Assembly (NCBI RefSeq): GCF_001515525.1
Contig: NZ_BCNQ01000001.1
Location: 1-64,000, forward strand
From: Piscicoccus intestinalis NBRC 104926
GTDB taxonomy: Bacteria; Actinomycetota; Actinomycetes; Actinomycetales; Dermatophilaceae
Reading direction: 5' to 3'
Length of the DNA stretch: 64,000 nucleotides
The translations under genes were made by a program, and so were the position numbers. This document shows, piece by piece, positions 20,880 to 45,316 of this stretch. A model generated the notes under the pieces. It ran no database searches. It had not been told where the DNA came from and saw only the letters and a list, made by a program, of their open reading frames with translations. Numbering within the stretch: the stretch's first letter is position 1; the number at the start of each line of letters is the position of its first letter.

Positions 20880-20967
20880 GTCCGGGTGGCGGAATGGCAG
20901 ACGCGCTAGCTTGAGGTGCTAGTGCCCTTTATCGGGCGTGGGGGTTCAAGTCCCCCTCCGGACACCA
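20880..20967 (+). tRNA. tRNA-Leu(GAG)
   Basis: Acceptor stem GTCCGGG (20880-20886) pairs with TCCGGAC (20957-20963), followed by encoded ACCA. D-arm region GTGGCGGAATGGCAGAC, anticodon stem CTAGC/GCTAG with loop TTGAGGT giving anticodon GAG, a long variable arm (typical class II leucine tRNA), and T-arm GGGGGTTCAAGTCCCCC. It reads CUC/CUU codons. Its 3' end is the probable prophage attachment site. Confidence 0.95.
20941..20967 (+). other. Probable attL in the 3' end of tRNA-Leu
   Basis: The integrase gene begins 85 bp downstream of the tRNA and all further genes are phage genes, the usual arrangement for a tyrosine-integrase prophage using the T-arm and acceptor end as core. I do not see a second copy of this segment later in the window, so attR must lie beyond base 64,000. 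Exact core limits cannot be set without attR. Confidence 0.6.
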
Positions 20968-21051
20968 TGTATTCGCGCAGGTCAAGCCGGGTTTCGGTGG
21001 GGTTTCTCGGGATGTTAGGGACCAGTCAGGGACCACGCGGAGGTGCGATCG

Positions 21052-22230
21052 ATGGCCGGGCTTGAGGAGCGGACCCTCGCCAGCGGCGAGACGAGGTGGC
21101 GCGTCTACTGGCGGCAGGACGGTCGGCGGCGGGTGGTGCCGTTCACCGACGAGACCGGCGCCCGGCGCTGGAAAGCGCTGCTGGAGTCCGCTGGGCCGGA
21201 GTTGGCGTTGCGGGCGCTTGAGGTGCCGGACGCTGCGCGGGCGCGGACGGTCGGTGAGCAGGTCGAGCACCACATCACGCACCTGACGGGTGTCGAGGAG
21301 GGCACGCGGCGGGATTACCGGCGCATGTGCGAGCGGGACATCGTGCCGCAGCTCGGTCCGGTGCCGGTGACGGCCCTGTCGTATGACGCTGTCGCGGCGT
21401 GGGTGAACGGGCTGCAGCGGCGTGGGCTGAGCGCGAAGTCGATCCGGAACAGGCAGTCGTTGTTGTCGGCGGCGTTGGCGTCGGCGGTGCGTGACGGGCT
21501 GGTCGGGACGAACGTCGCGAAGGGCGTGAAGCTCCCGCGTGTGGAGCGGCCGGAGATGACGTTCCTCACCCGGGGCGAGTTCGCGCGGCTGCACGAGCTC
21601 GTCCCGGCCCGGTGGCGGCCGTTGGTGATGCTGCTCGCTGGTACGGGCATGCGCTGGTCGGAGGCGACCGCGTTGACGGTGGCAGATGTGGACTTCGAGG
21701 CGCGGACGATCCAGGTGCGGCGGGCGTGGAAGCACACCGACGGCGCAGGGCACCGACTCGGGGCTCCGAAGACCACGCGCTCAAACCGCACGGTCGCGCT
21801 CCCGACCGCCTGCCGGGCCGACCTCGAGGAGCTCGTAGAGGGGCGCGGGCCGCGGGAGTTCGTGTTCACGAACACCCGGGGAGGGCCGGTGCGGCACCCG
21901 ACGTTCCATGAGGGTGTGTGGACCCCGGCAGTGCACGCGTTCGCGGGTGACCGGCGCCGGGTGGTGCGTGAGGGGCGGGGTCGGCCGCGTGTGGTGTGGG
22001 ATGAGGTGGGTGAGGGGAAGCGTCCTCGGATTCACGATTTGCGGCATACGTTCGCGTCGTGGGCGATCGCGGATGGGCATTCGTTGACGGCGATTCAGCG
22101 GACGATGGGGCATGAGTCGATCACGACGACGTCGGATCGGTATGGGCATGTGTTCCGGGCGGATCGTGATGCGTTCGCTGATCTTGTGGCGGCGCCTGGG
22201 GTTGTGCGCGGGATAGGCTCTAGGGCATGA
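21052..22230 (+). CDS. int: Tyrosine-type site-specific integrase
   Basis: 392 residues. ATG at 21052 is preferred: GGAGG at 21038-21042 is 9 bp upstream, while the GTG at 21043 directly abuts it. N-terminal arm-binding region, then a core-binding domain (about 70-170), then the catalytic domain with GTGMRWSEATAL (first Arg), IHDLRHTFASWAI (HxxR) and GHESITTTSDRYGH (His and the nucleophilic Tyr). It integrates the phage into tRNA-Leu. Its stop overlaps the lipoprotein gene start by 4 bp. Confidence 0.95.
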   Translation: MAGLEERTLASGETRWRVYWRQDGRRRVVPFTDETGARRWKALLESAGPELALRALEVPDAARARTVGEQVEHHITHLTGVEEGTRRDYRRMCERDIVPQLGPVPVTALSYDAVAAWVNGLQRRGLSAKSIRNRQSLLSAALASAVRDGLVGTNVAKGVKLPRVERPEMTFLTRGEFARLHELVPARWRPLVMLLAGTGMRWSEATALTVADVDFEARTIQVRRAWKHTDGAGHRLGAPKTTRSNRTVALPTACRADLEELVEGRGPREFVFTNTRGGPVRHPTFHEGVWTPAVHAFAGDRRRVVREGRGRPRVVWDEVGEGKRPRIHDLRHTFASWAIADGHSLTAIQRTMGHESITTTSDRYGHVFRADRDAFADLVAAPGVVRGIGSRA

Positions 22231-22733: not shown

Positions 22734-22743
22734 GCTCCGGGTG

Positions 22744-22781: not shown

Positions 22782-22782
22782 C

Positions 22783-22932: not shown

Positions 22933-22946
22933 CCGAGAACGACGAA

Positions 22947-23725: not shown

Positions 23726-23731
23726 GCCGGG

Positions 23732-24019
23732 TTAGCCGAGAATGTGCGGGATGAACCAGGCGACGAACGTCACCAGGAGCGCGGTGAACCCGAACCGGCC
23801 TGCCGGGGTTTTCGTCCGGAACCAGGCGCGTGTTCTCTCCGAGAGGGTGTCGCCTTCCGTCTCGTTGAGCACGGCGTTCCCTTCAAGGAGGGCGAACAAA
23901 GCACCCCAGCAGATCCAGAGGGCGTCGGCCCACCCGAAGGCGGGCCCCGCGGCGAGTGCAGCGAAGCCGATGATGGCGGCGGCGGGGATGAGCGCCGCCG
24001 GCATCTTGCCCCTGGTCAC
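23732..24019 (-). CDS. Small membrane protein, two or three segments (holin-like)
   Basis: 95 residues from GTG at 24019, overlapping the stop of the giant tail protein gene by 4 bp. Hydrophobic stretches ALIPAAAIIGFAALAAGPAF, ALWICWGALFALLEG and FGFTALLVTFVAWFIPHI, with a short charged loop containing NETEGDTLSERTRAWFRTKT. Size and topology fit a holin or antiholin, but the endolysin is 7 kb upstream, next to a better candidate. Function therefore uncertain. An internal ATG at 24004 is an alternative start. Confidence 0.75.
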   Translation of the reverse strand: MTRGKMPAALIPAAAIIGFAALAAGPAFGWADALWICWGALFALLEGNAVLNETEGDTLSERTRAWFRTKTPAGRFGFTALLVTFVAWFIPHILG

Positions 24020-27000
24020 GAGGGGAACCTCGCCAACTGGGCGGCGACGACCGGGCCGAAGTTCGGGTTCACGTCGTGGCCCTTCCCGGAGATGATCTGG
24101 ATGGACGTGTTGAATCCCTTCCCGCGGAACCACTGTTCGCCGTATTCGGCGGTGGCGCGGCCGTCGAACCCGTCCTCGGAGTTGGCTGCGGTGTCGTTGG
24201 CGCCGGCGCACCAGTGCATGCGGATCGCGGACTTGACCTGTGTGGAGTAGGTGGGGGTGACGTCGGGTGCCTCGCCGCCGCCGAACACGATGGTCGCTCC
24301 GCCGGCGGCGAGGTATTCGGGGTAGCGGCCCATGAAGAACTGCGTTACCTGCTGGGCGCCGCCGGAGAATCCGGCGAGGACGACCCGGGAGGGGTTGATG
24401 GCGTACCCGGTTTTCAGGGAGTCGATGAGCGCCTTGAGGTAGTCGGCGTTGGCGTTCCCGGACTCCCACCAGGTGACGGTCCCGGACGTGTCGGGCGCGC
24501 GACAGGAGGCGAGGATGAACCCGGCGTTCTTCGCCGCGACCCGGATACCGGAGGAGCCGCCCACGATGTACGAGCTGGAGGGGTTGTTGAACTCGTAGGC
24601 GGCGTCTCCGTGGAGCCAGATCATGAGCCCAGCGCCGGAGGATAGCCCGGACGCGTACGCGTGGTACTTCGACGTCTTCCCGGCTCCGGTGAACGAGACG
24701 TTCTCGCGGTCGGTGAAGGGGAGGGTCGCGGTGGGTGTGGTGGGGACGGTGGCGGCGGTGCCGTGGGCGAGGGCGACTTTGGTGACGGTGACAGCGCCGA
24801 CGGTGGCCGCGGCGTCGCCGCCGGTCGCGGTGCCGGCGGGAGGGGATGTGAGGTCATCGCCGCTGGTGCCGGTGCCGGTGCACGTGTTGTACGGCACCGT
24901 CTTCCCCGAGTTCGTGGTGTTGGACTGGAGGTAGGCGCCGGTCTTGAAGTAGCAGCCGGAGCCCGCGGAGTTGGGGAAGGTGCTGGAGGCGTTCGTGATC
25001 TGCGCGCGCTGGGTGGTCGCCGACGTGCCGGTGTCGGCCCAGACGGTGACGGTGTTGTTTTCGGAGCGGACGCGGATGGTGAACAGCTGCCCGACCCTGA
25101 CTTCGGGGATGAGCGGCGAGGATTGGATGACGGAGTTCCACTTCCACTTGATGCGGAACCCGCCCGTGGCGGTGCCGGTGACGGCCGCGTTCCCGACAGT
25201 GGGCCAGAACCCGTCGGCGTAGGCCATCCAGCAGTCGTCGGCCGCGTCATGAATCTGGGCGACGACGATCATCGGCCGCTTCAGCATGAGTCGGTCGACG
25301 CGCAGGGTGGTGGTCATCTCGTGGTACTTGCCGTCGTTGAATCCCCAGGAGGCGTTCGCGGACCCGCTGCTGGTCATTTCACGGAGTTCGCAGCGGGGGA
25401 ACACGGAGCCGGACGTGGTGGAGCCGCCGCAGACGGGGGCGAACGTCACGCCTGCGCCGTCGGTGGATGGGTAGATGTAGGTGTCTTTGTACGTGCCGAG
25501 GGAGGGCTGTTTGATTTCGGCGGCGGTGCCGGTGAACCCTCCTGTGGAGTCGGTGGGGAGGGTGACTTTCCAGTTGGTGAGGTCGAGGCGCTGCCCGATG
25601 GTGGCGGTCGGGGTCGGTGTCGACCCGCCGCCGCCGGAGTAGGCGGGGAGGGCGGCGACGTACGCCTTGTATTCGGTCCATAGGGCGTCGACGCTCTTGG
25701 AGCGGGCGTTGAGGCTGGTGATGATCGACGGGTTGAACGTCGAGGAGGTGAGTGCTGCGTTCAGCTTTTTCACGAACCCCGGCGACGGTGTCGGGGCGTA
25801 GCGTTCGATCCAGTCGAAGAAGAACCCTGTCACGTCGTACCCGTCGTACCAGTTGGTGCCGCCACCAGAGGGCCGCCGGGATTGGGCAGGGTGATAGCCG
25901 AGGCGGATGAGGACGAGGTCGGCGATTCCTTCGATGGTGCCGGTGGCCTGCTGCGAGGTGCCGTACGATGCGCCGTTCTGGTAGAGGTGGACGACCTCGT
26001 GGGTGGTGTAGGACGCGGTGACAGCGGCGCCGCGGGACTGGTTGCCGAACTCGATGCCGCCGGTGGAGGCGGTCGCGGCGGCGAGCATGTCGTTCGCGGT
26101 GAACGTGAGCTTGACGATGGCGTGTGTGCGGGGCACCTCGGATTGCTTGTTGTACAGGATGGAGCAGACGTTGCGGGCCATCTGCCGGAACCCGGCGAGC
26201 CACTGGGCGCCGGGGAACCGGATGACGTAGTCGTCGCGGGTGGCGGTGGAGATCGAGTTGGAGTTGATGGTTCCGACGAGGGCGGCGCCGTCGAAGTTGC
26301 TGGAGTCGGCGGCCACGATGATGTCGGCTTCGTCGGTGAGGTCGACCGCGGCGAGCCCGCCTTCGGTGGGCATGGAGGTGATGGAGAACGGGTCGCCGTA
26401 GCAGGTCCACGTGATGGGCAGCGTCATGCCGGGGTTGTTCGCGATGAGCTTGCGGTGGAAGAACACGCGGCCGTCGGTGGCCTGGTTATCTCCCCACCCC
26501 TGCAGGACGGTGTTGCGGAGGTCGGTGAGCTTCGACAGGTACGCGGTTTCGGATCCGCCCTTGCTGGGGGGTTTGGTCGCGGCGCGGGCTTTGGCGACGA
26601 TCCCGCCGAAGCTTTCGGAGTCGGTGCCGGGGCCGTGGTTCACGGAGATGTCGTAGAGGATGCAGAGTCCGAGGAGCCCGACGCCGTCTTCTTGGGCGGC
26701 GGCCAGCGCGGGGCCCCAGTAGACGCGGTCGCGTTCCCGCCGTTGGCAGTCCTGGAACCATGCCTGCGCGGAGGCGTTGGCCCAGTCCGTTTTGAACGCG
26801 GACCCGAGCAGGCTGTTGGACAGGGCGGGACGTTGGGAGTAGGAGGCCGCCATGATCTGCCGCAACTTCGGCAGCCACTTCGCCAGGCTGTTCGAGGGGT
26901 AGGCGGTGTTGGCGTACTCGACGAGGGTGAGCATGTCCCCGGTGCCGGAGCAGAATCCGACGATACCGGCGGTGTATCCGCGGCCGTCGCCGATGTCCTC

Positions 27001-28458
27001 GATATACCCGTACTTCGTGGTCCACGCCGTGGTGGAGTTCTCGGCAGTGCTCGTGAGGCGGAGCGCGATTTCCCGCCAGCCGGTGGACGCGAGCCCGGTC
27101 GAGGTGGCCCACCCTGACTGCGGCGGCGGGGGGACGGTGCCCGGGTCGGTCGGCACGGAGGTGTCCTGCAGCTGCCAGGTTCGCAGGTAGTCGACGTCCA
27201 TGTGCCCGGCCGGGGGGGTGTAGCCCTTCATCACGCCGGTGGAGAACACCGGGTAGAGGGTGCCGATGTAGTCGAGGCCGGGCCCGGTGTAGGAGGGTCC
27301 TGGCTGCCCGTCGAGCCACACTTGGATGCGGCCGTCGACCCATTCGAGGCCGTAGGTGTGCCAGGCGCCGTCGGCGTAGTCGACGCCGGACGGCCCGTAG
27401 GACTGCCAGTACGCCTGCTTCGACGTTGCGCCGCCGTCCTCCGACCAGTGGACGTTGAAGTGAGGGTGGTACTTCCCGTCGGGGGTGTCGGCCTGCACGA
27501 ACTCGGCGATGTCGACCTCGGGGGGCCACGTGTTGATCGGCAGCGGCAGGAGCCAGAACGCGGGCCATAGGCCGGGTGCGTTCGTGGACAGCCGGATGCG
27601 GGCTTCGAGGAACGTTCCTTCGCGGACGGTGAGGCCGGTGGCGGTGTGGGCGTAGGAGGCGGTGTAGGGGTAGGTGGTGCCGTAGGAGGTGATGGGGGTG
27701 GGATCCCAGGCGAGGCGGAGCATGCCGCCGGTGGCGGTGACGCGGTCCGCGGAGTAGGCGTGGTTGTCGCCGGCGGGGTTGATGGGGGAGTTGTAGGTTT
27801 CGCCGGGGGCGCCGCGCAGTGTGGTCCACACGCTGGTGTTGAGGGCGGTGAAGTCGTCGGCGAACGTGAGGGTCCAGGTGCCTGCCGGGCCGCCGGTGGG
27901 GGTGTTGGGGCCGGTGACGGTTCCCGGGTCGCCTGGGTCGGTGCTGCCGGGGTCGGTCGGGGTGCCGGTGTTGCCGGTCCCTGCGGCGGGGACGTGGAGG
28001 TCACCGGCGAACGCGTCGGCTGGGGAAGGGGGTGCGCCGACGGCGATGACGACACCATTCCCAGCGGGGCGAGGCCCCCAGTTGGTGGCGGTGGGGTTGC
28101 GTTCGTCGACGGGCGCGCGAACCCGGAACCCCGCGACGTCAGTGGGGAGCCGTGCCGCGGCGAGGGTGCCGGACGTCATACGCTCCGCAGCGAGCTGGAT
28201 TTGGGCGTCACTGGTGTTGTCGACGTTCCCGAGCCCGATCATGTCTTTGGTGATGCCGGTGACGACGCCGGTGAACGCCGGGTCGACGGTGGGTGCCCAG
28301 CGTGCGGCGGCGAGGGTGTCGCGGATGGCGGTGATGTCGCCGCGGGCGTCGTCGGTGTCGCCGACGGCCTGCCCGATCGCGTCGTGCTGGGCGTCGCCCA
28401 CCGCGGTCCACTGGTCGTGGCGGTCGGGGCGGGGCGGCATCGACGGGGGGTACGCCAC
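24016..28458 (-). CDS. Giant phage tail protein with five enzyme domains: GH16, GH46 chitosanase, BSP peptidase, PL7 lyase, esterase
   Basis: 1,480 residues from GTG at 28458, with AGGAGA 6 bp upstream. Residues 1-157: tail-fibre anchor homologous to neighbouring fibres (NPTATNWGPRPAG). 190-430: GH16, catalytic ExDxxE in PPEVDIAEFV (Glu314, Asp316, Glu319). 447-700: GH46 chitosanase, AENST (Glu473) and YIEDIGDGRGYTAGIVGFCS (Asp491). 708-935: BSP-type metallopeptidase with HEVVH (820-824) and EGIAD. 955-1180: PL7 lyase with RCELREM (1022-1027), QIH (1068-1070) and YFKTGAYLQ (1170-1178). 1250-1480: alpha/beta hydrolase, GFSGG (Ser1365) and GKGHD (His1461). Thr/Pro/Gly linkers such as GTPTDPGSTDPGDPG separate domains. 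All active-site motifs are intact. It should sit at the tail tip and digest surface polymers. Confidence 0.93.
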   Translation of the reverse strand: MAYPPSMPPRPDRHDQWTAVGDAQHDAIGQAVGDTDDARGDITAIRDTLAAARWAPTVDPAFTGVVTGITKDMIGLGNVDNTSDAQIQLAAERMTSGTLAAARLPTDVAGFRVRAPVDERNPTATNWGPRPAGNGVVIAVGAPPSPADAFAGDLHVPAAGTGNTGTPTDPGSTDPGDPGTVTGPNTPTGGPAGTWTLTFADDFTALNTSVWTTLRGAPGETYNSPINPAGDNHAYSADRVTATGGMLRLAWDPTPITSYGTTYPYTASYAHTATGLTVREGTFLEARIRLSTNAPGLWPAFWLLPLPINTWPPEVDIAEFVQADTPDGKYHPHFNVHWSEDGGATSKQAYWQSYGPSGVDYADGAWHTYGLEWVDGRIQVWLDGQPGPSYTGPGLDYIGTLYPVFSTGVMKGYTPPAGHMDVDYLRTWQLQDTSVPTDPGTVPPPPQSGWATSTGLASTGWREIALRLTSTAENSTTAWTTKYGYIEDIGDGRGYTAGIVGFCSGTGDMLTLVEYANTAYPSNSLAKWLPKLRQIMAASYSQRPALSNSLLGSAFKTDWANASAQAWFQDCQRRERDRVYWGPALAAAQEDGVGLLGLCILYDISVNHGPGTDSESFGGIVAKARAATKPPSKGGSETAYLSKLTDLRNTVLQGWGDNQATDGRVFFHRKLIANNPGMTLPITWTCYGDPFSITSMPTEGGLAAVDLTDEADIIVAADSSNFDGAALVGTINSNSISTATRDDYVIRFPGAQWLAGFRQMARNVCSILYNKQSEVPRTHAIVKLTFTANDMLAAATASTGGIEFGNQSRGAAVTASYTTHEVVHLYQNGASYGTSQQATGTIEGIADLVLIRLGYHPAQSRRPSGGGTNWYDGYDVTGFFFDWIERYAPTPSPGFVKKLNAALTSSTFNPSIITSLNARSKSVDALWTEYKAYVAALPAYSGGGGSTPTPTATIGQRLDLTNWKVTLPTDSTGGFTGTAAEIKQPSLGTYKDTYIYPSTDGAGVTFAPVCGGSTTSGSVFPRCELREMTSSGSANASWGFNDGKYHEMTTTLRVDRLMLKRPMIVVAQIHDAADDCWMAYADGFWPTVGNAAVTGTATGGFRIKWKWNSVIQSSPLIPEVRVGQLFTIRVRSENNTVTVWADTGTSATTQRAQITNASSTFPNSAGSGCYFKTGAYLQSNTTNSGKTVPYNTCTGTGTSGDDLTSPPAGTATGGDAAATVGAVTVTKVALAHGTAATVPTTPTATLPFTDRENVSFTGAGKTSKYHAYASGLSSGAGLMIWLHGDAAYEFNNPSSSYIVGGSSGIRVAAKNAGFILASCRAPDTSGTVTWWESGNANADYLKALIDSLKTGYAINPSRVVLAGFSGGAQQVTQFFMGRYPEYLAAGGATIVFGGGEAPDVTPTYSTQVKSAIRMHWCAGANDTAANSEDGFDGRATAEYGEQWFRGKGFNTSIQIISGKGHDVNPNFGPVVAAQLARFPS

Positions 28459-28466
28459 AGGGTCTC

Positions 28467-29540
28467 CTAGGTGATGGTGATGTCGTCGACGTCCATGGAC
28501 ACGGATGCCACGGCTTGCCCGGTGCCGCAGACGAAGCCGAAGTATCCGGCGGCGACCTGGGTGGTGGTGACGTTGATCTCCCACGCCGAGGGTTCGGTGG
28601 CGGTCGCTGCCCACGCGCGTGCCTGCACGGTGCCGCCGTTGATGCGGATGCGGAGGCGGTAGTCGGTGCCGGAGTCGGTGGCGCGGGTGACGGACGCGAG
28701 GGTGGTGTATGTCCAGTTGTCGATCTGCGAGGCGGAGAAGCTTCCGCCGGAGAACCTGATCCTGACCCCGTTCTGAGGGTCGAGGTTCGGCTGGTCGCAG
28801 CGGGCGACGAACATGGCCTGCGAGTCGCTGCCGCGGTTCAGGAGGAACGTCGCTTCGACGTTCGCGGCGAGCGTGGAGTGCCGCACGGCGACACCGTCGC
28901 TGGAGTTGTAGTTGCCCATGGTGTTGCCGGAGGTGAGGCGGCCGCGGTTGTTCTGGACGGTGGCGGATCCGCCGGTGGGGAGGCGGGACAGGACCCACGG
29001 CGCGGGCCACGCGGCGCCGTTGGAGAGGCCGTTGAAGTTGGTTCCGGCGGTGGTTTGGGTGAGGGGGGTGACGTGCAGGTCGGTCGCGGGCGCGTCCGAC
29101 GGGGCGGGTGCGGCGCCGACGGCGATGACGAGCGGGTACCCGGCCGGGCGCGGCTCCCAGTTGGTGGCGGTGGGGGTGGCCTCGTTGGCGCGGGTGCGGC
29201 GCCGGACCGCGGCGACCCCAGCGGGCAGCCTGGCGGGCGGGATGGTCCCGGACGTGATCTGCGTGGCGCTGTAGGTCTTCGCCGCGTCCGCAGTGTTCGA
29301 GACGTTCCCGAGGCCGACCATCGCGGCCGTCACACCGCTGACCGTGCCCGTGAACGACGGGTTCGCCAGCGGCGCCCGCGTCGCCTGGAGGTTCGCCAGC
29401 GTCCCCTGCAGCGCGAGGACGTCCGACTTGAGCTGAGGGACGTCGGTGATGAGCTGCTGCACGTTGTCGTACCAGGCGTACCCGACGTCGAGCCACGGCT
29501 GCCCTGTGGTCGGCTTCGCTGGCATCGGCACGATCGGCAC
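28467..29540 (-). CDS. Phage tail fibre / receptor-binding-type protein
   Basis: 357 residues from GTG at 29540 with a GAGAGGGG-type RBS. N-terminal stalk (MPIVPMPAKPTTGQPWLDVG, NPSFTGTVSGVTAAMVGLGN), then the shared module TPTATNWEPRPAGYPLVIAV, then a beta-sandwich region (WPAPWVLSRL, ATFLLNRGSDSQAMFVARCD, VDDITIT) of concanavalin/LamG style. The stalk motif FTGTVSGVTAAMVGLGNVSNT is nearly repeated in the giant tail protein next to it (FTGVVTGITKDMIGLGNVDN). Probably a fibre that binds sugar on the cell surface; binding specificity is unknown. A 189-bp gene-free stretch follows upstream. Confidence 0.8.
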   Translation of the reverse strand: MPIVPMPAKPTTGQPWLDVGYAWYDNVQQLITDVPQLKSDVLALQGTLANLQATRAPLANPSFTGTVSGVTAAMVGLGNVSNTADAAKTYSATQITSGTIPPARLPAGVAAVRRRTRANEATPTATNWEPRPAGYPLVIAVGAAPAPSDAPATDLHVTPLTQTTAGTNFNGLSNGAAWPAPWVLSRLPTGGSATVQNNRGRLTSGNTMGNYNSSDGVAVRHSTLAANVEATFLLNRGSDSQAMFVARCDQPNLDPQNGVRIRFSGGSFSASQIDNWTYTTLASVTRATDSGTDYRLRIRINGGTVQARAWAATATEPSAWEINVTTTQVAAGYFGFVCGTGQAVASVSMDVDDITIT

Positions 29541-30697: not shown

Positions 30698-31026
30698 CCT
30701 TCCTCGCCGTCGTGGAGACGGTCGTACTGTGTCGGACCATCAGGGTCCCGGTGCCGCCCGGTATAGTCGCCGCCCTGGTACAGGGACCTGTCGGCGGGCA
30801 CGAGGGGGGTGCCGTCCGCTGCGCGGGGCTCATCGACAGGGGTCACCTTCCCCCTGGTCCAGAGGACGAGTGCAGCGGTTCCGGCGAGGTCGATGACGAG
30901 CGCGGCCTGCCCCTCCACCTCCGCGGTGAGAGGCAGGACGCCGGAGATCACTAGGAGGTGCAGGACCGCGGTGACAGCCGCGACCACGGCGGCGCGGATC
31001 GCGAGAGGTTCACGCTTCGCGTCCAT
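30694..31026 (-). CDS. Putative holin
   Basis: 110 residues from ATG at 31026, sharing one base with the endolysin stop (TGATG). Two hydrophobic stretches, AAVVAAVTAVLHLLVISGVL and AALVIDLAGTAALVLWTRGK, with a charged C-terminal tail. Two membrane segments, small size and coupling to the endolysin gene make it the best holin candidate. The WTRGKVTPV motif at the end of the second segment is common in actinophage membrane proteins of lysis cassettes. Confidence 0.7.
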   Translation of the reverse strand: MDAKREPLAIRAAVVAAVTAVLHLLVISGVLPLTAEVEGQAALVIDLAGTAALVLWTRGKVTPVDEPRAADGTPLVPADRSLYQGGDYTGRHRDPDGPTQYDRLHDGEEG

Positions 31027-31859
31027 CACATGGCCGCCCAGGTGATGCTCCCGACCATGCTGTCGGGGGTGAGTCCGTGGGCCTTCTGCCAGTCCCGGAC
31101 AGCCCTCGCCGTCGCCGGGCCGAACCGTCCGTCGCTGGCCACCTTGACCTTGTTCTGGATGAGGCCGATCGCGAACCGGTCCGCCACCCGCTTCCCCGAG
31201 TGGGAGCGGGGTCCGCCGTCGTCGACGCCGTACCAGTGCCCGGCGGCGAGAGGGAACGGTCCACGGGGTTCGGTGGGCGGACCGGCCGGCGCGGTGGGCT
31301 TCACGATCGACGCGGGCGCGTTCCGCGTGGCAGCGGCGTTCCGCACCCACGTCAGGTAGTCGCCCCACGGGAACGACGTGCCGGGATCCCAGTGGGAGGA
31401 CAGCTTGTACACCCGGGACGCTTGGACGTGCCCGATCAGACCCGCCTCCCCGGCGCGCAGCTGCGCGTCGGTGAGGTGCCTGATGGGGATGTCGTGGCGG
31501 GCGCAAATCCCGGCCATGAGCGGCGCGGACTGGTCCCGCAGCATCGCCAGCGAGTACGCGTCAGCCCAGTCTGCGGTGCCCTGTTTCGCGTATCCCGCGT
31601 GTTCGAGCTGGATGCCGTCGGCGTTCGCGCCCGGCGCCGCGTAGGCGGTGTCTAGCTCGTTGACGCCCTGGATGGTGGAGTCCGCGTCGACGTAGTAGTG
31701 GGCGGATGCCATCGGGGCCTTGGAGCTGCGGAAGTAGTTGGCGCACCACTCCGCGGAGGTGGGCCGCTCCGGGTACTCCATCGTGTGGATAATCCCGAGC
31801 CGCACGTTTCTGACGCGGCCGCGGCGGTAGTTGGTGGCCTGGATCATTTGGATAGCCAT
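31026..31859 (-). CDS. Endolysin: N-acetylmuramoyl-L-alanine amidase with peptidoglycan-binding domain
   Basis: 277 residues from ATG at 31859. Residues 15-172 are an Amidase_2/T7-lysozyme-type domain with zinc ligands His25 (GIIHTM), His144 (GLIGHVQAS) and Asp158 (HWDPG). Residues 215-277 contain a peptidoglycan-binding helical domain (ADRFAIGLIQNKVKVASDGR, FGPATARAVRDWQKAHGL). It cuts the amide bond between muramic acid and the stem peptide. No signal peptide, so release should need the holin encoded next. Confidence 0.92.
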   Translation of the reverse strand: MAIQMIQATNYRRGRVRNVRLGIIHTMEYPERPTSAEWCANYFRSSKAPMASAHYYVDADSTIQGVNELDTAYAAPGANADGIQLEHAGYAKQGTADWADAYSLAMLRDQSAPLMAGICARHDIPIRHLTDAQLRAGEAGLIGHVQASRVYKLSSHWDPGTSFPWGDYLTWVRNAAATRNAPASIVKPTAPAGPPTEPRGPFPLAAGHWYGVDDGGPRSHSGKRVADRFAIGLIQNKVKVASDGRFGPATARAVRDWQKAHGLTPDSMVGSITWAAM

Positions 31860-33077: not shown

Positions 33078-33968
33078 CTAGCCAGCGAGGAATGTGATGT
33101 CGTCGTATGAGGCGGTGTACGCGGCGGCCGTCGAGGACGGTCGCGCCACGAAACCCAAGTAGCCGGCGGTTGTCTTCGACGGGTTGACCGTCAGGTCCCA
33201 ACCCGCCGGCTCTGACGCAGACGCGGCCCACGACTTCGCTTGCACCGTTCCGCCAGCGGCCGCGATCTTCACCTTGTAGTCGACTCCGGTTGTCCATGTC
33301 CTGGGTGTCTCTCCGAGGGTTGTTTCGGTCCAGTTCACCGACTCCGCGATCGAGAGTGACGACCCGAAAGTCCCGACGGCGATTCCGTTCCCGGGGTCCA
33401 AGTCGGTTTCATCGGAACGCAGCACGAACCGCGCGTAGACGCTGTTCACGCGGCGGAACGTGTAGGTGATGGTGAAGTTTGCCATTGACGTCTGGTGCCG
33501 TACGGCGACGCCATCCTCGGACCCGTAGTTGCCGACGGCCGCGGCGGTCGTGAGGAGGCCACGCCCACCGGAAACGCTGATGGAGCCTCCTGCTGGAAGC
33601 GCCGCCTGAACCCACGGGGCGGGCCACCCGGACGTCTGGTCCGTGCCGAACGACGTGAGTTCTCCGGTGGCGGTCCCGGCCTGCATGGTGGCGGGGATGT
33701 GAAAATCGCCTGGCTGCGCGTCGTTCGGTGCGGGAGCGGCCCCGACCGCGATCACGTAGGAGTACCCGGCCGGACGCGCCCGCCAGTTGGTGGCGGTCGG
33801 GGCCGCCTCGTCAGCGGATGAGCGGACGCGGATGGCGGCGCCACCGAGTGCCGCCTTCAGCGACGGGACGTCGCTGATCACCTCACGCAGATTGTTGTCT
33901 GCGGTGTCACCCCACGTCGTCCACGTGCCGCCCTCGTTCGGCTTGGCCGGCATGTTCTGGTAAGCCAT
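33078..33968 (-). CDS. Phage tail fibre-type protein (paralogue)
   Basis: 296 residues from ATG at 33968. MAYQNMPAKPNEGGTWTTWG, then the shared module APTATNWRARPAGYSYVIAV, then a beta-sandwich with WPAPWVQAAL, GNYGSEDGVAVRHQTSM and TAGYLGFVARPSSTAA, ending YDDITFLAG. It is plainly homologous to the products at 28467-29540 and 33972-34970. It lacks the long stalk of the 28467-29540 product. Probably a sugar-binding fibre or fibre cap. Confidence 0.8.
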   Translation of the reverse strand: MAYQNMPAKPNEGGTWTTWGDTADNNLREVISDVPSLKAALGGAAIRVRSSADEAAPTATNWRARPAGYSYVIAVGAAPAPNDAQPGDFHIPATMQAGTATGELTSFGTDQTSGWPAPWVQAALPAGGSISVSGGRGLLTTAAAVGNYGSEDGVAVRHQTSMANFTITYTFRRVNSVYARFVLRSDETDLDPGNGIAVGTFGSSLSIAESVNWTETTLGETPRTWTTGVDYKVKIAAAGGTVQAKSWAASASEPAGWDLTVNPSKTTAGYLGFVARPSSTAAAYTASYDDITFLAG

Positions 33969-33971
33969 CGG

Positions 33972-34970
33972 TCACGCTCCGAACGCTGCGCCGTAGTTGA
34001 TGCCGAACCCGCCGGATGCGGTGGCAGTGATGGTGATGTCGTCGTACTGGACGACCTGCGCCGCGCCCGGGGTGGCGCTGGTGCCGGCGACGACGATGCC
34101 GAGGTACCCGGCGGTGGTTTTCGCGACGGTCGCGGCGGTGACGTCCCACCCGGTGGGTTCGGGGTCGGCGAGGGGCCACACGCGGGCTTTCACGGTGGGT
34201 CCAGTGGCGTCGATCCGCAGTCGGTAGTCGGCGCCGACGGTCAGGGTCTTGGTGGCGGTGGCGATGACGGTCGCTGTGCCCGCGACGACGTCCGAGATCG
34301 TCAGCGAGGTGCGGTCGTAGCCGACGCGGACGGCGGTGTTCGCGCCGAGGTTTGCGACGTCGGAGCGCAGCACGAACCTCGGGCGGGCCGCGTCGCTCTG
34401 GTGCCGGAACGTCAACAACACGTTGGTGTTGGTTTGCATCCCGGAGCCGTAGCGGATGGCGGCCTGGTCCTCGAACGCGGAGGCACCCAGCGAACCAGTG
34501 GTGACGACACCCCGCCCGGCGGCGACGGATGCCCCACCGCCCGCGGGGACACGCTCGGTGATCCACGGCGCGGGCCACGACGCACCATCCACCAGGGAGA
34601 ATGTCGTGGTGACGTCGGTGACTGTGTTGGCGTCACGGTCCTGGCGCCAATCCAGGGGTCCCGCGTCCGCGGGTGCGGGGGCGGCGCCGACAGCGACGAC
34701 CGCGGCGAACCCCAGCGGACGCGCGGACCAGTTCGTCGCGGTCGGGGTCTGCTCGTCAGTGTCGGTGCGCCACCGCGCGGCGACCAGCGACGCCCGGTCC
34801 TCATCCGTCAGGCCGCCTCCGCCGCCGTGGCCCTGAAGCCACAGGTCCACGATCGACTCCACGGCACGCCGGAACGTCGACCCCGCGGTCAGCGCGACTT
34901 CGGCCATGTCGTCGGGCAGAAACCGCCGCGACACGATGTCCTCACGGCGCCACCCAGACGGTGTGCCCAT
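33972..34970 (-). CDS. Phage tail fibre-type protein (paralogue)
   Basis: 332 residues from ATG at 34970, one base after the previous stop. N-terminal 70 residues are distinct (WRREDIVSRRFLPDDMAEVA, GHGGGGGLTDEDRASL) and presumably anchor it; then the common module TPTATNWSARPLGFAAVVAV and a beta-sandwich (WPAPWITERV, GYLGIVVAGTSATPG, QYDDITITATASGG). Third member of the fibre family in this region. Confidence 0.8.
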   Translation of the reverse strand: MGTPSGWRREDIVSRRFLPDDMAEVALTAGSTFRRAVESIVDLWLQGHGGGGGLTDEDRASLVAARWRTDTDEQTPTATNWSARPLGFAAVVAVGAAPAPADAGPLDWRQDRDANTVTDVTTTFSLVDGASWPAPWITERVPAGGGASVAAGRGVVTTGSLGASAFEDQAAIRYGSGMQTNTNVLLTFRHQSDAARPRFVLRSDVANLGANTAVRVGYDRTSLTISDVVAGTATVIATATKTLTVGADYRLRIDATGPTVKARVWPLADPEPTGWDVTAATVAKTTAGYLGIVVAGTSATPGAAQVVQYDDITITATASGGFGINYGAAFGA

Positions 34971-34971
34971 G

Positions 34972-37869
34972 TCAGACCTTCCCCCTCGCCCCGGCCCACA
35001 GCGCCTTGTATTTCGCGGCGGCGTTCGGCATGTTCGACCCGCCGCCCGCGATTCGCAGGGCGTTGCGGATGTAGTCCATGTCCTCGTGGAAGTACGCTTC
35101 GACGGCGACGACGTCGCGGTTCTTCCAAATCCAGTCGTACATGAACTGGATGAACGCTGGGGAGTCGCCGCAGCCCTGCGTGCCGTGGCAGCCCCATTCG
35201 TTGATGCACATGCCCTTGCCGTGGGCGCGGGCGAACTCCGCGACGTTGTCGAGCATGACACCGGAGCCGGAGGTGCGGCGCAAGTACCGGTTCTTGTCGG
35301 TGGGGCAGGTCCCGCCGCCCGCGTCCTTGAACTCATAGATGTCAAGGCCGATCAAGTCGACGACGTCGTCACCGGGGTACGGAATCGACAGGACACCGTT
35401 CGCCGCCGACGACCCGGACAGGCCGTTGTCGGAGTTGACCTCGAAACAAATCACGAAGTCCTTGCTGATCGACTTGAAGATCTGCGCGTGGCGGCGGAAC
35501 CCGGCCTTGAAGCTCGCGACATTCGCGGTCGTGACTTTCCACGTCCAATCGATCTGGATTTCCCACGTCAGGCGGATAATCGAGTTCCCGCGGCCGTACC
35601 TCACCAGGTAGTTCGCAGTGTCCCGCGCGATCGAGTCGTATTTCCCGCTGGCGACGCCCGCCCAGTCGTTCCCGGCCGCCTTCGACAGCGGCGTGTACCC
35701 GAAGATCAAGCGGCCCTTGTAACCGTTGGTGAGCCCGGCGGGCCAGTCTTCCACGAGCCCGGACTGCCCACCATCCCGCGCGCTGTAGGTGACGAACCCG
35801 TCGAGGGGGAAACCCATCCACGACTCCATGTCCGCGGCGGCCTGCGCGTCCATCGGCCGCCCGCACGTGTGTGCCCCGACGTGCCACGGCAGGCCAGATC
35901 GGGTCGGGCCGAGGATCCGCATCGCGGCGGACTGTGTCGTCGGGGGCGTCGGGTTGGTCGGGGTCGTGGTGTCCGTCTCCGGGACCCACGCCGGACCACC
36001 CCAGCCGGGCGAGACCGCTTCGAGCTGGTCGAGGGGGATGCCCTGGAGGACGGTGTCGACGGAGCGGCCTTGGAGGTAGGTGCCCCACGGGTCGGTCCCG
36101 GTCTGCGCTTGCTCACGGGCGCCGGATTCGCAGACGAGGCCAGGTTTCTCGGCGCCGCCGATGACGACGAGGCCGTACTTCTTCATGGCGGTTCCGACGG
36201 CCTTCCCGAGCGGGGTGCACTGCGATAGGTCCGCGGATGCCTTGAGTCGGTACCGCTGCCCCATCTTCGGGGCGTTCGCGTCGGTGGAGGTCCCATCGGA
36301 GCGGGTCGCGGGCCACACGTACCCGGTCGCGGCGGTGTCGTAGGCGAGGTTCAAGCCGATGGCGTGCCCGATCGCGTTGACGTTCTGCTGCGTCACCGCG
36401 GCCCTCGCCTCGCTGACCTTGATCGCGGCGGCGACGAACGAAATCCCAGAGCCGGTGAAACCGGTTCCGGTCGGGAACGCGCCGGTTGAGGTGCCGGCGG
36501 AGTCGATACGCCCACCCCACGACGCGGACCACTTCCACGTGCCGTCGGTGGCTTGGGTGAGCCCGAGGAACTCCCACACCTGCTTCGTGTCCAGGGACAC
36601 GATCGCGGCGGTCTTGAACAGATTCGCGGGGGGCGACATGCCGGACGGGATGGGCACGGCGTCGAGGGCTCCGGTCCCGGCCGTGTTGTGCATGAGCGCC
36701 ACATCGCCGCGCGTGGACGTGGCCGGCGGGGTGATGTTGACGCGCGGCGTGGACGCGGTGGCCATCCACATCGGGCAGGAGTCCTGGTAGGCGTCGAGTC
36801 GCAGAGCCGACGTGGACGCGGTCCCGACCTGGCCGCGGAGGTAGGTGACGAGCCCCGCGGATGCCTTCGCTGCCGGCGCCGACGACAGGTCGCTGTAGAA
36901 CACGGAGTTGTTGGCGAACCGCAGTGTGGCGGGGTCGGTGGTGTCGGTGCCCGCGGGGGGCGGGACCGCGACCGGCGACGACTGCAGCATCACGTCCGTC
37001 AGGGTGAGGTCGCCGCTGGTCTTGACGACCTCGACCTCGACGTCCTTCCACGACGGGATGACGGCTTGCGACGCGGCGGCCCACGTGAACGTCAGGGTCT
37101 GCGCCGAGGTGGTGGTGGATTTCGCGACGGCGGCGCACCACACCTGAGAGCCGGACAGGAGCCGCACCTGCACCGTGCCCGCAGCGGACGACCGGACTCC
37201 GAACAGGGTCACAACCAGGTCGTTCCCAGACGTGGAGGCGTGCTGGAAGTTCCGCATGTCCAGCTGCAGCCGGACACCGCCGGAGCCGACAGTGGGTGTG
37301 CCGGTCGCGGACGTCAGGGTGTCCCCGTCGGACAGGGCGGCTGCGAGGGTCACCCCGGCGGGGGTGGACCAGGTGCCGTCCTGCAGGAGCACCGCGAACG
37401 GCCGGACGGTGGGGGACGGGGTGGAGGTGTCCGCGGCCGGGGTCCCGGGGTCGGTCGGTGTGGTGCCCGGGTCGGTGCCGCCGCCTCCCGGGGTGCCGCC
37501 GATCGTCGTCCACGACGGCCGCCCGGCGGCGATGGCGGTGCACCACTGGAACACCGTCTGCGACACCCACACGTCGCCGATGGTGAGTCCGTCAGCGACG
37601 GCCGGGGCACGGCCGGACGCGAGGGGGGAGAAGTAGATGCGGGAGCCCTGCGTGGCGTCCCGGGCGGGGTTGGGCCACGACCCGTCAGACGCTTGCACGA
37701 CGGAGGTCACGGCGCCGCGCGGGACGATCGCCGACCCTGACGGCAGAATCCGCCCCAACGCGGCACGGAACAGGCTGGTTCCGTCCGTGGCCTCCTTCGC
37801 CATGCGGGCGTCGACGTCCTGCTCACGCACCACGTACTGACGGTCAGACTGCACAGGCTGTGTAGACAA
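34972..37869 (-). CDS. Large tail protein with GH26-like glycosidase domain
   Basis: 965 residues from ATG at 37869. Residues 1-125: phage anchor (MSTQPVQSDRQYVVREQDVD). 126-150: Gly/Thr/Pro linker. 155-300: beta-sandwich carbohydrate-binding-like domain (LQLDMRNFQHASTSGNDLVV). 315-620: a second domain with PMWMATASTPRV, AIGHAIGLNLAYD, WPATRSDG and MGQRYRLKASADLS, a style seen in uncharacterised secreted actinobacterial proteins. 648-965: GH26-like barrel with IIRLTWEIQIDW (acid/base Glu770), CFEVNSD, DLIGLDIYEF and CINEWGCHG (nucleophile Glu891). Exact substrate (mannan-like or other) is not decidable. Likely a second tail-borne depolymerase. Confidence 0.83.
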   Translation of the reverse strand: MSTQPVQSDRQYVVREQDVDARMAKEATDGTSLFRAALGRILPSGSAIVPRGAVTSVVQASDGSWPNPARDATQGSRIYFSPLASGRAPAVADGLTIGDVWVSQTVFQWCTAIAAGRPSWTTIGGTPGGGGTDPGTTPTDPGTPAADTSTPSPTVRPFAVLLQDGTWSTPAGVTLAAALSDGDTLTSATGTPTVGSGGVRLQLDMRNFQHASTSGNDLVVTLFGVRSSAAGTVQVRLLSGSQVWCAAVAKSTTTSAQTLTFTWAAASQAVIPSWKDVEVEVVKTSGDLTLTDVMLQSSPVAVPPPAGTDTTDPATLRFANNSVFYSDLSSAPAAKASAGLVTYLRGQVGTASTSALRLDAYQDSCPMWMATASTPRVNITPPATSTRGDVALMHNTAGTGALDAVPIPSGMSPPANLFKTAAIVSLDTKQVWEFLGLTQATDGTWKWSASWGGRIDSAGTSTGAFPTGTGFTGSGISFVAAAIKVSEARAAVTQQNVNAIGHAIGLNLAYDTAATGYVWPATRSDGTSTDANAPKMGQRYRLKASADLSQCTPLGKAVGTAMKKYGLVVIGGAEKPGLVCESGAREQAQTGTDPWGTYLQGRSVDTVLQGIPLDQLEAVSPGWGGPAWVPETDTTTPTNPTPPTTQSAAMRILGPTRSGLPWHVGAHTCGRPMDAQAAADMESWMGFPLDGFVTYSARDGGQSGLVEDWPAGLTNGYKGRLIFGYTPLSKAAGNDWAGVASGKYDSIARDTANYLVRYGRGNSIIRLTWEIQIDWTWKVTTANVASFKAGFRRHAQIFKSISKDFVICFEVNSDNGLSGSSAANGVLSIPYPGDDVVDLIGLDIYEFKDAGGGTCPTDKNRYLRRTSGSGVMLDNVAEFARAHGKGMCINEWGCHGTQGCGDSPAFIQFMYDWIWKNRDVVAVEAYFHEDMDYIRNALRIAGGGSNMPNAAAKYKALWAGARGKV

Positions 37870-41299: not shown

Positions 41300-44200
41300 C
41301 TACACCCCCGCGAGCGAGACAAGCGCAAGCTCATCCCGAAGTCTGGTCGTGGTCTTCTTCGCGAACCTCTCCGGGTCGCCGTACACGTCCCCGTGAACAT
41401 GCACGCCGCCCTGCAGCGCCGCCCACGGCGACGCCGCGTGCTGCTGCACCGGCAGGTGCCGCATCACGGCCTTCCACTGCGCGTCCGTCAACACCCGGTC
41501 AGGCTTCATGCCCTGATGGACCGCGACGTCGCCCTTGCGGAGTAGACCTCCCTGGTCGAACAGCTTCACGCCATCGAACAGGCCGCCGTGTTTCATCGCC
41601 CAGTGCACGTGATTCCAGTGCATGGCGCGTGTGACGCCGGTGTACATGTGGGGGCGGCCGTGCCACACCTGCCCGCCGTTCGCGGGAGAGTAAATGAGTT
41701 CCGCGATCCGTGAGCCCCACGCAGATTTGATGCGGTTGAACACGGCCATAGAGGGCGTGACGTCGATGGCGCGGCCGCGGGAGTGGTAGGAGCGGTTGCC
41801 GGTGGCGGTGATCGCTCCGGGCCGGTACGCGGAGTGGAGCTGGACGCCGGGGACTGCGTTACGGAGCCAGTTCCACTGGTTCTGCCAGCCCATGACGTTC
41901 CCGGAGGCGGTGCCGTTCCCTACGGGGCCGGTGCCTCCGAACATCGACGACAACAGGGACTTGGCCTTGTTGGCGACGCCTTCCGCGACCTTCGGGATGA
42001 ACCCGCGGGCCATGCCCCACGCGAACCCGGCCGTTCCGGGGAGGTCACCGAGGATAGCTTTCCCGAGCCCGACGAACGCCCCGAACGGGTTCCCGAAGAA
42101 ATCCAGCACGGCGCCGCCGACGCCCTTGAGGGTGTCGAGGATCCCGCCGCCCGCGAACGACCGCGGCCGCCAGATCCCGCCGGACGCGAACGCGGTTCGC
42201 CCGAGGTAGGGGGTGTCTCCTGCGCCGGAGCCGGGGGTGCCGTCGCCGAACAAGAAGCGGCGGATGGCGCCGACGCCGCCGCGGCGGGCGATGGCGTTCA
42301 TCTGCCGGATCAGGGCGGGGCCGAGTGCACGGACCCATTCGGGGACCATGATCGCCTCGCCACCGGACAGGTCCAGGCGGCCCCCGGTCGGGGACCAGAA
42401 GCGGTGCACGTCCCTCCCGGGCGTGTACCCGGGAAGGACGGACCCGCTAGCGGCCTTCGTGACGCCCGGCCCGAGCCACAAACCGCCCTTGGCGAGCCTG
42501 GGGACGCGCAGGGAGACGCCGATGCCGCTGAGGGCGGAGTTCATCTTCCCGACGAGGTTGGCGTTGATCCAGGAGCGGGTGGCGTTGATCGGTCCCTGCA
42601 CGGAGCCGGTGAGGCGGGACCAGACGTCCGCGATGCCGCGCTGCGCCGACTGGAAGAACGACCACACGCTGTTGACGCCGTTCTTCAAGTTCGTGAACGA
42701 CGTGGAGATCCGGGACCACGCGTTGCCGATGGTCGACGTGATCGCGGACCACACGGTCGACATCGTCGCGCGGAGCGTGTTGAACGCGCCGGTGAGTGTC
42801 GACGTCGCCCAGGTGCGCAGCGGCGTGAACCAGCCGACGAGCCGCGAGTACGCGTTCGACACGGCCGTAGTGATCGCCGACCACGCAGTCGACGTCGCGG
42901 ACCGCAGGGTCGCCCATGCGCTGGTGAGGGTGGACACGGCCCAGGTGCGCAGCGGCGTGAAGATCGCGATCAGGCGAGCCCACGACGCTGACACCGCCGA
43001 CGTGATCCCAGCCCAGGCTGTCGCGGCGACCGAGCGGAGCAGGTTCCATGCGCCGGTCAGGGTCGTCGCCGCCCAGGCGCGCAGCGGCGTGAAGATCGCG
43101 AGCAGGCGAGCCCAGGCCGCGGAGACGGCGTTCGTGATCGCCGACCAGGCGGTTTGCGCTGCGGCCTGCAGTGTCCGCCAGCCGGCGGTCAGTTGCCCGG
43201 TGACCCACGCGACGAGCGTGGAGAACACCCCGGACATCCGCGCCCACGCGTTCGCCACGGCCGTCGACACCGTCGACCACGCGACGGTCGCCGCGGTCTG
43301 GAACGCCTTGAACGCCGGCACCAGCGTGGCTTGGAGCGCTGCGGCGAGGAGGTTGAAGATGCCCTTCGCCGCGTTCCACATGCCCTGGACGCCGATGACG
43401 ACGAGCGCGAGCGCGACAGTCGCTGCGGTCTTGTACGCGTTCCACGCTCCCGCGAGCACCTTGGTCAGGACGTTCCCGAGGAACGTGAAGATCGGCGACA
43501 TCACCGACCAGGCCGCCGAGACCGCGGCCGACACCGCCGACCAGGCCGTCGCGGCAGCGGACCGGAACTGAGCCCAGCCAGCCGCCAGCCGACCGCCAAG
43601 CCACGCTGCGACCTGCGTGAACACCCCAGACAGGTAGGACCAGGCGGCGGACACCGCCGATGACGCCCCGGACCAGGCCGTCACCACGGCGTCTCGGAAC
43701 TGGCCCCAGCCGGTCGCCAGCCGCCCGCCAAGCCACGACGTCAAGCTCGCGAACACGCCCGAGATGACGCCCCACGCCGTCGACACCGCTCCCGACACGG
43801 CGCTCCACACCGTCTGCGACGTCGCGAGGAACGCGGTCAGGACGACGCCGGCGGCCTTCACGGCTGCCCCGAACAGTCGCCCGAGGATCTGCCCGACTGA
43901 CAGGCCCATCTCCGTGACCGACGCTACGATCGTTCCCTTCGCGGCCCCGAAGATCCCCTTGAACGCCGCGCCGAGGATCACCCCTGCGCCCTTCAACACC
44001 GCGCCGATGCGGCCGAGGAACCCGACCTGCAACAGGCCGATGATCCCATCGAACGCGCCCTTCACGATCTGGACCAGACCCTCCCACGCCTTCCCGAAGT
44101 CCAGCGTGAGGATTCCCGTGAGGACCTTCAGTGCGCCGCCGATGATGTTCACCGCGCCCCGAACAACCCGCACAAGGCCGTCGATCATGCCCATCACCAC

Positions 44201-45316
44201 GGGCCCGAAGATCGCCAACAGCCCGCGGATGATGGGGGAGTTCACCAGCGCCTGACCGAACGCCGCGAACGCCGGCAGCACGTCACCGGTGATCGTCTGC
44301 CCGATGCCTTGCAGCGCGGGCCACACCTTCGCCGCGACCTGCTGCGCGAACTGCGTGAACCAGCGCCCCACCGGGGACTGCGCGATCGCGTCGAACCCGG
44401 CCTTGAGGCGGGCCATCACGCCCTCACCGCCGCCGGCACGGGCGAACAGGTCACCCATCGCGCCACCGACAGCCGTGAACACGTCCAGCAGCGCCGACAT
44501 CGCAGGCAGCAACGCGGACCCGACGATCGCCTTGAAGTTTTCCCACGAGGCGGCGAGTCGTGCCTGTTTGCCGGCGTAAGTGTCCGCTTCCCGCGCGAAC
44601 TGACCCTGAGCCGCCGCGGACTGCTTCATGATCAACGAGACCCTGGCTTGCGCCTTGGCCTGCTCCAACGCGGCGCCCTTGAGTTTGTCCTGACCCTTCG
44701 CCGCGAGTTCGGCGTTGATCATCGACTCGTTCAGGGTGATGCCGTACCGTTCGAGCGGGTCGTACTCGCCGCGGAGCGCCGCGGAGAGGGCTTCGACGGA
44801 TTCCTTCGTGGTGCCGCCGAACGTTGCGGCGAGGTCGGCGCCGCGCTTGATCAGGATTTGTGTCTGGTCGCCGAAGTCCTTGAAACCTTGGTTCTTGAGC
44901 ATCGCGCCCATCGTGGTCGCGAGCTCGTTGTACTGGTTTTTCGACAGGCCGAGGTTCTTCGACGCCGCCGCGGACGCGGCGTTGATCGCGGCCGCCTGCT
45001 TCCCGAAGACGGTGTTGACGCCGCCCACGGACTGCTGCAGGTCGGACGCGCCCTTGATGGCGTCGGAGAAGAACGACCCGAGGCTGACCGTCGCGGCAGC
45101 CGCGGCCAGGGGCGCGAAGATCTTTTTCCCGACGCCGACCATGGCGCCGGACATGCCGCCGCCCATCTTCTTGCCCGCGTTGCGGCCGGTGCGGTCCGCG
45201 TCGGCCTCCACGCCGCGCATCTCCGCCGCGATTTCCTTGCGAAGCCCTTGAGTGCTCGGGACGATGGAGATCCACGCAGTGGCGAGTTCGATGCCGTTGG
45301 CCACCAGCACCCCCAC
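41300..45316 (-). CDS. Tape measure protein with M15-like peptidase domain
   Basis: 1,338 residues from GTG at 45316. N-terminal helical part (IELATAWISIVPSTQGLRKE), TMP core with INAASAAASKNLGLSKNQYN and LATTMGAMLKNQGFKDFGDQ, then Ala/Trp-rich 44-residue repeats (about residues 500-872), a membrane-active stretch, and a C-terminal M15-like zinc peptidase domain (about 1140-1245) with HSAYRPG, SYHSRGRAID (SxHxxGxAxD) and HWNHVHWA. Sets tail length and, through the peptidase, may open the cell wall at DNA entry. At 1,338 residues it predicts a tail near 200 nm by the usual 1.5 Å per residue rule (inference). Confidence 0.93.
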   Translation of the reverse strand: MGVLVANGIELATAWISIVPSTQGLRKEIAAEMRGVEADADRTGRNAGKKMGGGMSGAMVGVGKKIFAPLAAAAATVSLGSFFSDAIKGASDLQQSVGGVNTVFGKQAAAINAASAAASKNLGLSKNQYNELATTMGAMLKNQGFKDFGDQTQILIKRGADLAATFGGTTKESVEALSAALRGEYDPLERYGITLNESMINAELAAKGQDKLKGAALEQAKAQARVSLIMKQSAAAQGQFAREADTYAGKQARLAASWENFKAIVGSALLPAMSALLDVFTAVGGAMGDLFARAGGGEGVMARLKAGFDAIAQSPVGRWFTQFAQQVAAKVWPALQGIGQTITGDVLPAFAAFGQALVNSPIIRGLLAIFGPVVMGMIDGLVRVVRGAVNIIGGALKVLTGILTLDFGKAWEGLVQIVKGAFDGIIGLLQVGFLGRIGAVLKGAGVILGAAFKGIFGAAKGTIVASVTEMGLSVGQILGRLFGAAVKAAGVVLTAFLATSQTVWSAVSGAVSTAWGVISGVFASLTSWLGGRLATGWGQFRDAVVTAWSGASSAVSAAWSYLSGVFTQVAAWLGGRLAAGWAQFRSAAATAWSAVSAAVSAAWSVMSPIFTFLGNVLTKVLAGAWNAYKTAATVALALVVIGVQGMWNAAKGIFNLLAAALQATLVPAFKAFQTAATVAWSTVSTAVANAWARMSGVFSTLVAWVTGQLTAGWRTLQAAAQTAWSAITNAVSAAWARLLAIFTPLRAWAATTLTGAWNLLRSVAATAWAGITSAVSASWARLIAIFTPLRTWAVSTLTSAWATLRSATSTAWSAITTAVSNAYSRLVGWFTPLRTWATSTLTGAFNTLRATMSTVWSAITSTIGNAWSRISTSFTNLKNGVNSVWSFFQSAQRGIADVWSRLTGSVQGPINATRSWINANLVGKMNSALSGIGVSLRVPRLAKGGLWLGPGVTKAASGSVLPGYTPGRDVHRFWSPTGGRLDLSGGEAIMVPEWVRALGPALIRQMNAIARRGGVGAIRRFLFGDGTPGSGAGDTPYLGRTAFASGGIWRPRSFAGGGILDTLKGVGGAVLDFFGNPFGAFVGLGKAILGDLPGTAGFAWGMARGFIPKVAEGVANKAKSLLSSMFGGTGPVGNGTASGNVMGWQNQWNWLRNAVPGVQLHSAYRPGAITATGNRSYHSRGRAIDVTPSMAVFNRIKSAWGSRIAELIYSPANGGQVWHGRPHMYTGVTRAMHWNHVHWAMKHGGLFDGVKLFDQGGLLRKGDVAVHQGMKPDRVLTDAQWKAVMRHLPVQQHAASPWAALQGGVHVHGDVYGDPERFAKKTTTRLRDELALVSLAGV
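42700..43815 (-). repeat. Degenerate 132-bp (44-residue) repeats in the tape measure gene
   Basis: At least seven units start with WSAxxxAVSxAW, for example WSAITNAVSAAWARLLAIFT, WAGITSAVSASWARLIAIFT, WSAITTAVSNAYSRLVGWFT, WSTVSTAVANAWARMSGVFS and WSAVSGAVSTAWGVISGVFA, each 44 residues apart. Typical tape measure periodicity but unusually clear; unit number would change tail length. Confidence 0.85.

Follow-up and report, generated by a model that had tools for sequence, protein, structure and literature searches.

We find that a prophage of Piscicoccus intestinalis carries a gene for a single protein in which five enzyme domains with intact active sites follow a fibre-type N-terminal anchor. 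The prophage is complete, the GH46 domain of the protein belongs to a phage lineage, and the host genome holds relatives of four of the five domains. From these observations we infer attachment to the virion, enzyme activity and the substrates, and we give a probability of roughly 0.6 to the reading in which a temperate siphovirus-type phage bears the protein as a fibre on its virion and uses the five-enzyme chain to digest the extracellular matrix of its own group of hosts. By the window we mean the whole stretch of 64,000 nucleotides that was analysed.

A single reading frame encodes five enzyme domains

The gene and its parts are as follows.

24016..28458 (-), gene for the five-enzyme fibre-type protein, 1,480 aa, single ORF, GTG start
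28464..28468 (-), Shine-Dalgarno sequence AGGAG, which overlaps the stop codon of the fibre gene upstream
27979..28458 (-), N-terminal fibre-type anchor, residues 1-160
27169..27882 (-), GH16 domain, residues 193-430, EVDIAE at 314-319
26371..27111 (-), GH46 chitosanase domain, residues 450-696, E473/D491
25654..26337 (-), BSP metallopeptidase-like domain, residues 708-935, HEVVH at 820-824, EGIAD from 843
24889..25596 (-), PL7 lyase domain, residues 955-1190
24019..24726 (-), alpha/beta-hydrolase (esterase-like) domain, residues 1245-1480, S1365/D1422/H1461

The original prediction had the reading frame, its coordinates and its length of 1,480 residues right: the frame is uninterrupted and lies within a contig of 116 kb. 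Five bases separate the AGGAG from the GTG start, and it is the single ribosome site. Upstream, the frame stays free of stops as far as 29496 and overlaps the neighbouring gene, which is read in another frame; the choice of the GTG start therefore rests on the AGGAG site together with homology of the anchor.

Domain searches placed four of the five domains above the curated Pfam cut-offs. GH46 matched over residues 467-666 (E 3e-61; PDB 4ily, E 2e-59), and E473 and D491 aligned on 1chk and 4ily with E22 and D40 of Streptomyces N174. PL7 matched Alginate_lyase2 over residues 958-1185 (E 3e-32; PDB 5zqi, E 1e-28); the RxELR, QIH and YFKxGxYxQ motifs are present in its sequence, and R1022, R1026, Q1068, H1070, Y1170, K1172 and Y1176 are invariant in comparison with two viral PL7s. 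The BSP domain matched PF04450 over residues 758-930 (E 1e-21, or 2e-23 for the domain alone) and carries the HExxH zinc motif as HEVVH, while a search by sequence for a relative of solved structure found none. The weakest of the four matches was that of GH16 (residues 284-391, E 1.5e-8); here the ExDxxE motif is present as EVDIAE, and about 240 columns can be aligned with the GH16s of the host.

The C-terminal 236 residues resemble PHB-depolymerase-type esterases weakly (E 4e-8), and at 33 bits against a curated cut-off of 150 they fall outside the PHB depolymerase family as modelled by NCBIfam NF050058. An AlphaFold2 model built from five homologues reached a pLDDT of 84, and Foldseek matched it to alpha/beta-hydrolases (best E 3e-9). 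The triad S1365/D1422/H1461, with D1422 as the acid, is kept in all five homologues, and the fold of the model together with this Ser-Asp-His triad identifies the domain as an alpha/beta-hydrolase esterase. The prediction of five enzyme families with intact catalytic motifs behind a fibre-type anchor in a phage protein is thereby supported, directly by profile for GH16, GH46, BSP and PL7 and, for the C-terminal domain with its match below the cut-off, by fold. Each catalytic position it had proposed (E314/D316/E319, E473, D491, H820-E821-H824, S1365 and H1461) proved to be placed correctly.

All catalytic residues are retained at roughly 27-55% identity to relatives, which argues for selection on catalysis. 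The same retention weighs against a possible but doubtful reading, in which some of the domains are enzymatically dead sugar-binding modules and only one or two of them cut. Membership of a family is no proof of activity, the GH16 match is the weakest of the four, and tested peptidase activity of BSP proteins is scant, all of which speaks for this reading.

The gene closes the late operon of a complete prophage

The gene lies within a complete siphovirus-type prophage of about 74.7 kb, which is inserted in a tRNA-Leu gene between 28-bp att repeats. Its landmarks in the window are these.

20940..20967 (+), attL, the 28-bp 3' end of tRNA-Leu(GAG); an exact second copy lies at 95571-95598 of this contig (attR, beyond the window)
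21043..22230 (+), prophage integrase (phrog_1, E 4e-72)
31026..31859 (-), endolysin, amidase plus peptidoglycan-binding domain
41300..45316 (-), tail tape measure protein
48934..49956 (-), major head protein
51885..53285 (-), portal protein
53898..55985 (-), terminase large subunit

Protease, scaffold and minor tail genes are likewise present. The five-enzyme gene closes the late operon, downstream of the endolysin gene, and is adjoined at the prophage end by a sigma-factor-like gene (22958-23725, minus strand). IMG/VR holds a copy of the prophage (UViG_2681812969_000001, 75,486 bp) that is 100% identical over the 17.9 kb compared (19591-37525) and probably derives from the same genome as the window. 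The lysogen may be one among several hosts of the phage.

The position of the gene has parallels in prophages of another actinobacterium, Curtobacterium, where depolymerases regularly lie downstream of the lysis module and include an alpha/beta-hydrolase and lyases; those described there differ from the present protein in having one enzyme each (PMC9862828).

Elsewhere in the prophage, a 965-residue protein with Pro/Thr linkers (34972-37869, minus strand) has a C-terminal region that is weakly GH26 mannanase-like (Pfam 0.02; PDB 4zxo, 0.0018; AlphaFold2 pLDDT only 34), and from its sequence it is a possible second enzyme-bearing virion protein.

Part of the anchor is common to sibling fibre genes

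Parts of the anchor recur in three other genes of the prophage.

28467..29540 (-), sibling fibre gene, 357 aa, related anchor 44% identical, D1/D2 repeats, other C-terminal domain
33078..33968 (-), sibling fibre gene, 296 aa, second anchor half in common
33972..35345 (-), sibling fibre ORF, second anchor half in common; its true start is probably an internal ATG

Residues of about 107-172 are common to all three siblings, and the first part of the anchor is common to the gene just upstream. The C-terminal domains of the three siblings weakly match the C-terminus of phrog_24476. Within the anchor, residues 40-96, the GLGNVDNTSDA-type part, match phrog_3030, and residues 41-96 are matched in Arthrobacter and Mycobacterium phages by genes annotated as hypothetical. 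In Arthrobacter phages BruhMoment and Ranunculus the matching genes end the rightward genes, after the minor tail genes, and in mycobacteriophage I3 the matching gene adjoins a head decoration gene. In IMG/VR, searches for close relatives with the whole protein, its anchor, its BSP domain and its esterase domain returned only the same prophage; among GTDB r220 contigs, neither the whole protein nor the anchor had a match.

These comparisons suggest that the five-enzyme protein is likely a virion fibre, with a probable place on the tail, although, given the I3 match beside a head decoration gene, the anchor could instead hold a head fibre. They also bear on the idea that the enzymes form a soluble cocktail, not mounted on the virion, which is released at lysis and loosens biofilm for the progeny or feeds sibling lysogens. 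Such a role would suit a gene that comes last in the late operon, after the endolysin gene. However, the N-terminus is of a fibre type and partly common to three prophage genes, two of which lie upstream of the lysis genes, and since a soluble enzyme would not need a fibre-type anchor, its presence counts against the idea, which we regard as unlikely.

Host relatives of three domains lie in or beside exopolysaccharide genes

The host genome carries separate, mostly secreted-looking relatives of GH16, GH46, PL7 and the esterase, and relatives of GH46, GH16 and the esterase have glycosyltransferase genes no more than 2.6 kb away. The only two other GH46 genes of the host flank a locus on contig C60 (L037, 8267-14589) with the order GH46, an 811-aa polysaccharide deacetylase-GT2 protein, an Acyl_transf_3 protein, and GH46. 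From its gene content this is a candidate locus for a chitosan-like exopolysaccharide, similar to the matB/ica-type aminoglycan locus of Streptomyces, in which one protein, MatB, serves as both synthase and deacetylase and is followed by an icaC orthologue (PMC5972031). Two host GH16s found by searching with the fibre protein have GT2 genes 0.4 and 0.5 kb away (contigs C121 and C13). For the host esterase, also on C13, the distance to a GT2 gene is 1.6 kb, and a UDP-glucose/GDP-mannose dehydrogenase gene lies nearby. No glycosyltransferase gene adjoins the host PL7 (contig C42) or the two other host GH16s. About 2.4% of the host genome is within 3 kb of a GT2 gene, and four of the seven host loci are within about 3 kb of one, for which the chance expectation is about 1e-5, a post hoc and rough figure that treats the genome as one line.

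Host relatives of three domains in or beside exopolysaccharide genes thus indicate one composite host matrix. The original prediction had listed several different polymers as substrates; the five families stand, and the host neighbourhoods point instead to a single composite matrix. The naming of 'protein' and 'alginate' as substrates consists of guesses from family names, and the description of the chain as a purpose-built digester is plausible. A BSP relative was sought in 99 sampled genomes of the order and was found only in the host genome itself, and PL7 occurred in one other genome of 79 sampled from the order, so that these two domains are left with no clear host substrate.

The substrate classes of GH16, GH46 and PL7 would also suit chitosan- and uronate-bearing fungal walls, and the chain might be aimed at eukaryotic walls, fungal or algal, or at some other environmental polymer and not at the host matrix. 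One virus, the chlorovirus PBCV-1, encodes a chitosanase and a polyuronate lyase together with a beta-1,3-glucanase; it differs in that these are separate genes, in that the lyase is of PL14 and not PL7, and in being an algal virus (PMC8145301). Digesting such a wall would bring no direct gain to a bacterial phage, and the host has its own secreted GH16, GH46 and esterase relatives beside its own glycosyltransferases, which makes this reading improbable in our judgement.

Viral relatives include other multi-enzyme chains

A tblastn search of phage records matched GH46 in 30 records of Streptomyces phages and GH16 in three of rhizobial phages, and no other domain; all matches in INPHARED and PLSDB were to single domains. 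DrGrey gp21 (Rimavirus) and Ponzi gp58 of Streptomyces phages have GH46 domains of the same phage clade, about 48-54% identical, and lie in late structural regions, that of Ponzi between the minor tail proteins and the endolysin; they differ from the present protein in having a single enzyme domain (Pfam) and other N-terminal regions.

Scanning IMG/VR with a GH46 profile gave 12 loci, with most viral GH46s inside larger tail-type proteins; in two of these (L051 and L060) GH46 is fused to long tail-like sequence. L054 (1,689 aa) combines GH46, PL7, GH16 (just under the Pfam cut-off) and PL6 (chondroitinase B), and a near-identical protein, L055, comes from another sample (IMGVR_UViG_3300037070_000739 and 3300037119_003233). 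Both have GH46, PL7 and GH16 families in common with the five-enzyme protein and differ in order, linkers and N-terminus, in the presence of PL6, in the lack of BSP and esterase domains and in the subfamily of GH16. L052 (860 aa; IMGVR_UViG_3300031996_000005) resembles the five-enzyme protein in joining GH46 to PL7, and differs in having two enzymes and a GH46 without its C-terminal part. A PL7 scan added L070 (IMGVR_UViG_3300002461_000401, 1957-6591), a viral protein of 1,545 aa with three enzymes in one chain, of other families and without GH46 (GH5, GH18, PL7).

Two further arrangements were seen in these scans. At 5062-11737 of L052 the GH46 appears split. Its C-terminal stretch opens the following ORF and is preceded by a segment with Big_7 and PL7, which looks as though a GH46 gene had received a PL7 cassette; the following ORF also has a PhoD domain, and an upstream ORF of 1,416 aa has another PL7-like stretch. 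At 5071-8562 of L071, a viral protein of 1,164 aa carries PL7 ahead of a tail-like C-terminal part.

The expectation that tail depolymerases have one enzyme, at most two, was therefore too strict, as L070 has three and L054 four such domains. Five is the largest number found in this comparison. Among 80 viral GH16 loci, a second enzyme of the set occurred only in the five-enzyme gene, a count made with home-made profiles that detect only the families of this set and would miss others.

In a GH46 tree, phage and secreted chitosanases are split with a support of 100/99, and the GH46 of the five-enzyme protein falls in the phage clade. By path, L052 is nearest and L054 third nearest to it, in a branching order without support. 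Its GH16, on the other hand, shares 53% identity with a secreted GH16 of the host (contig C121) and at most 36% with viral GH16s, and the chain is therefore a mosaic.

We considered an artefact of assembly or annotation that joins separate genes, and rejected it with very little hesitation: only one assembly is available, but a single stop-free frame in a 116-kb contig, a single ribosome site, uniform codon composition across the five enzyme domains (GC3 0.91-0.94) and independent viral contigs with similar chains all speak against it. GC and codon bias in the enzyme domains gave no sign of recent stitching.

Tail proteins with several domains and tail genes of mosaic make-up are already known (PMC10684548), and Klebsiella phage K64-1 has several depolymerases for several capsule types (as cited in PMC5380687). 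A tail depolymerase is accordingly a known kind of protein, and what appears to be new is the set of five enzymes. The earlier statement that no described phage protein has this set was borne out, in that no such phage record came to light and a search of the open-access literature for a natural phage protein with five catalytic domains found no paper.

A proposed path through a composite matrix

In the reading that we favour, the N-terminal anchor of a virion fibre would hold a flexible chain of five enzymes, and these would digest the matrix around bacteria of the host group. GH46 would cut a deacetylated aminosugar polymer, the esterase would take off its acyl groups, GH16 would cut a polymer of beta-glucan type, PL7 would act on a uronate polymer, and matrix protein may be the target of the BSP domain. 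Judged by the host counterparts of its domains, the protein would probably cut a path through the polysaccharide coat of the host, and digestion of the matrix would both let the virion reach the cell and let progeny exit a lysed, slime-bound colony.

Phage depolymerases have mostly been studied singly, against one capsule. The five-enzyme chain and its relatives with three and four enzymes in uncultured viruses suggest that some phages face a composite matrix and have solved the problem with one polypeptide. The host GH46, GH16 and esterase relatives beside glycosyltransferase genes offer concrete substrates to test, and the five domains are ready-made tools for dissolving actinobacterial biofilms. 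More generally, and tentatively, actinophages might build multi-enzyme fibres from a phage GH46 lineage and from matrix-enzyme modules of their hosts, in sets that match the exopolysaccharide clusters of those hosts. If this is true, the list of enzymes on a fibre could serve to predict the chemistry of the host matrix, and vice versa.
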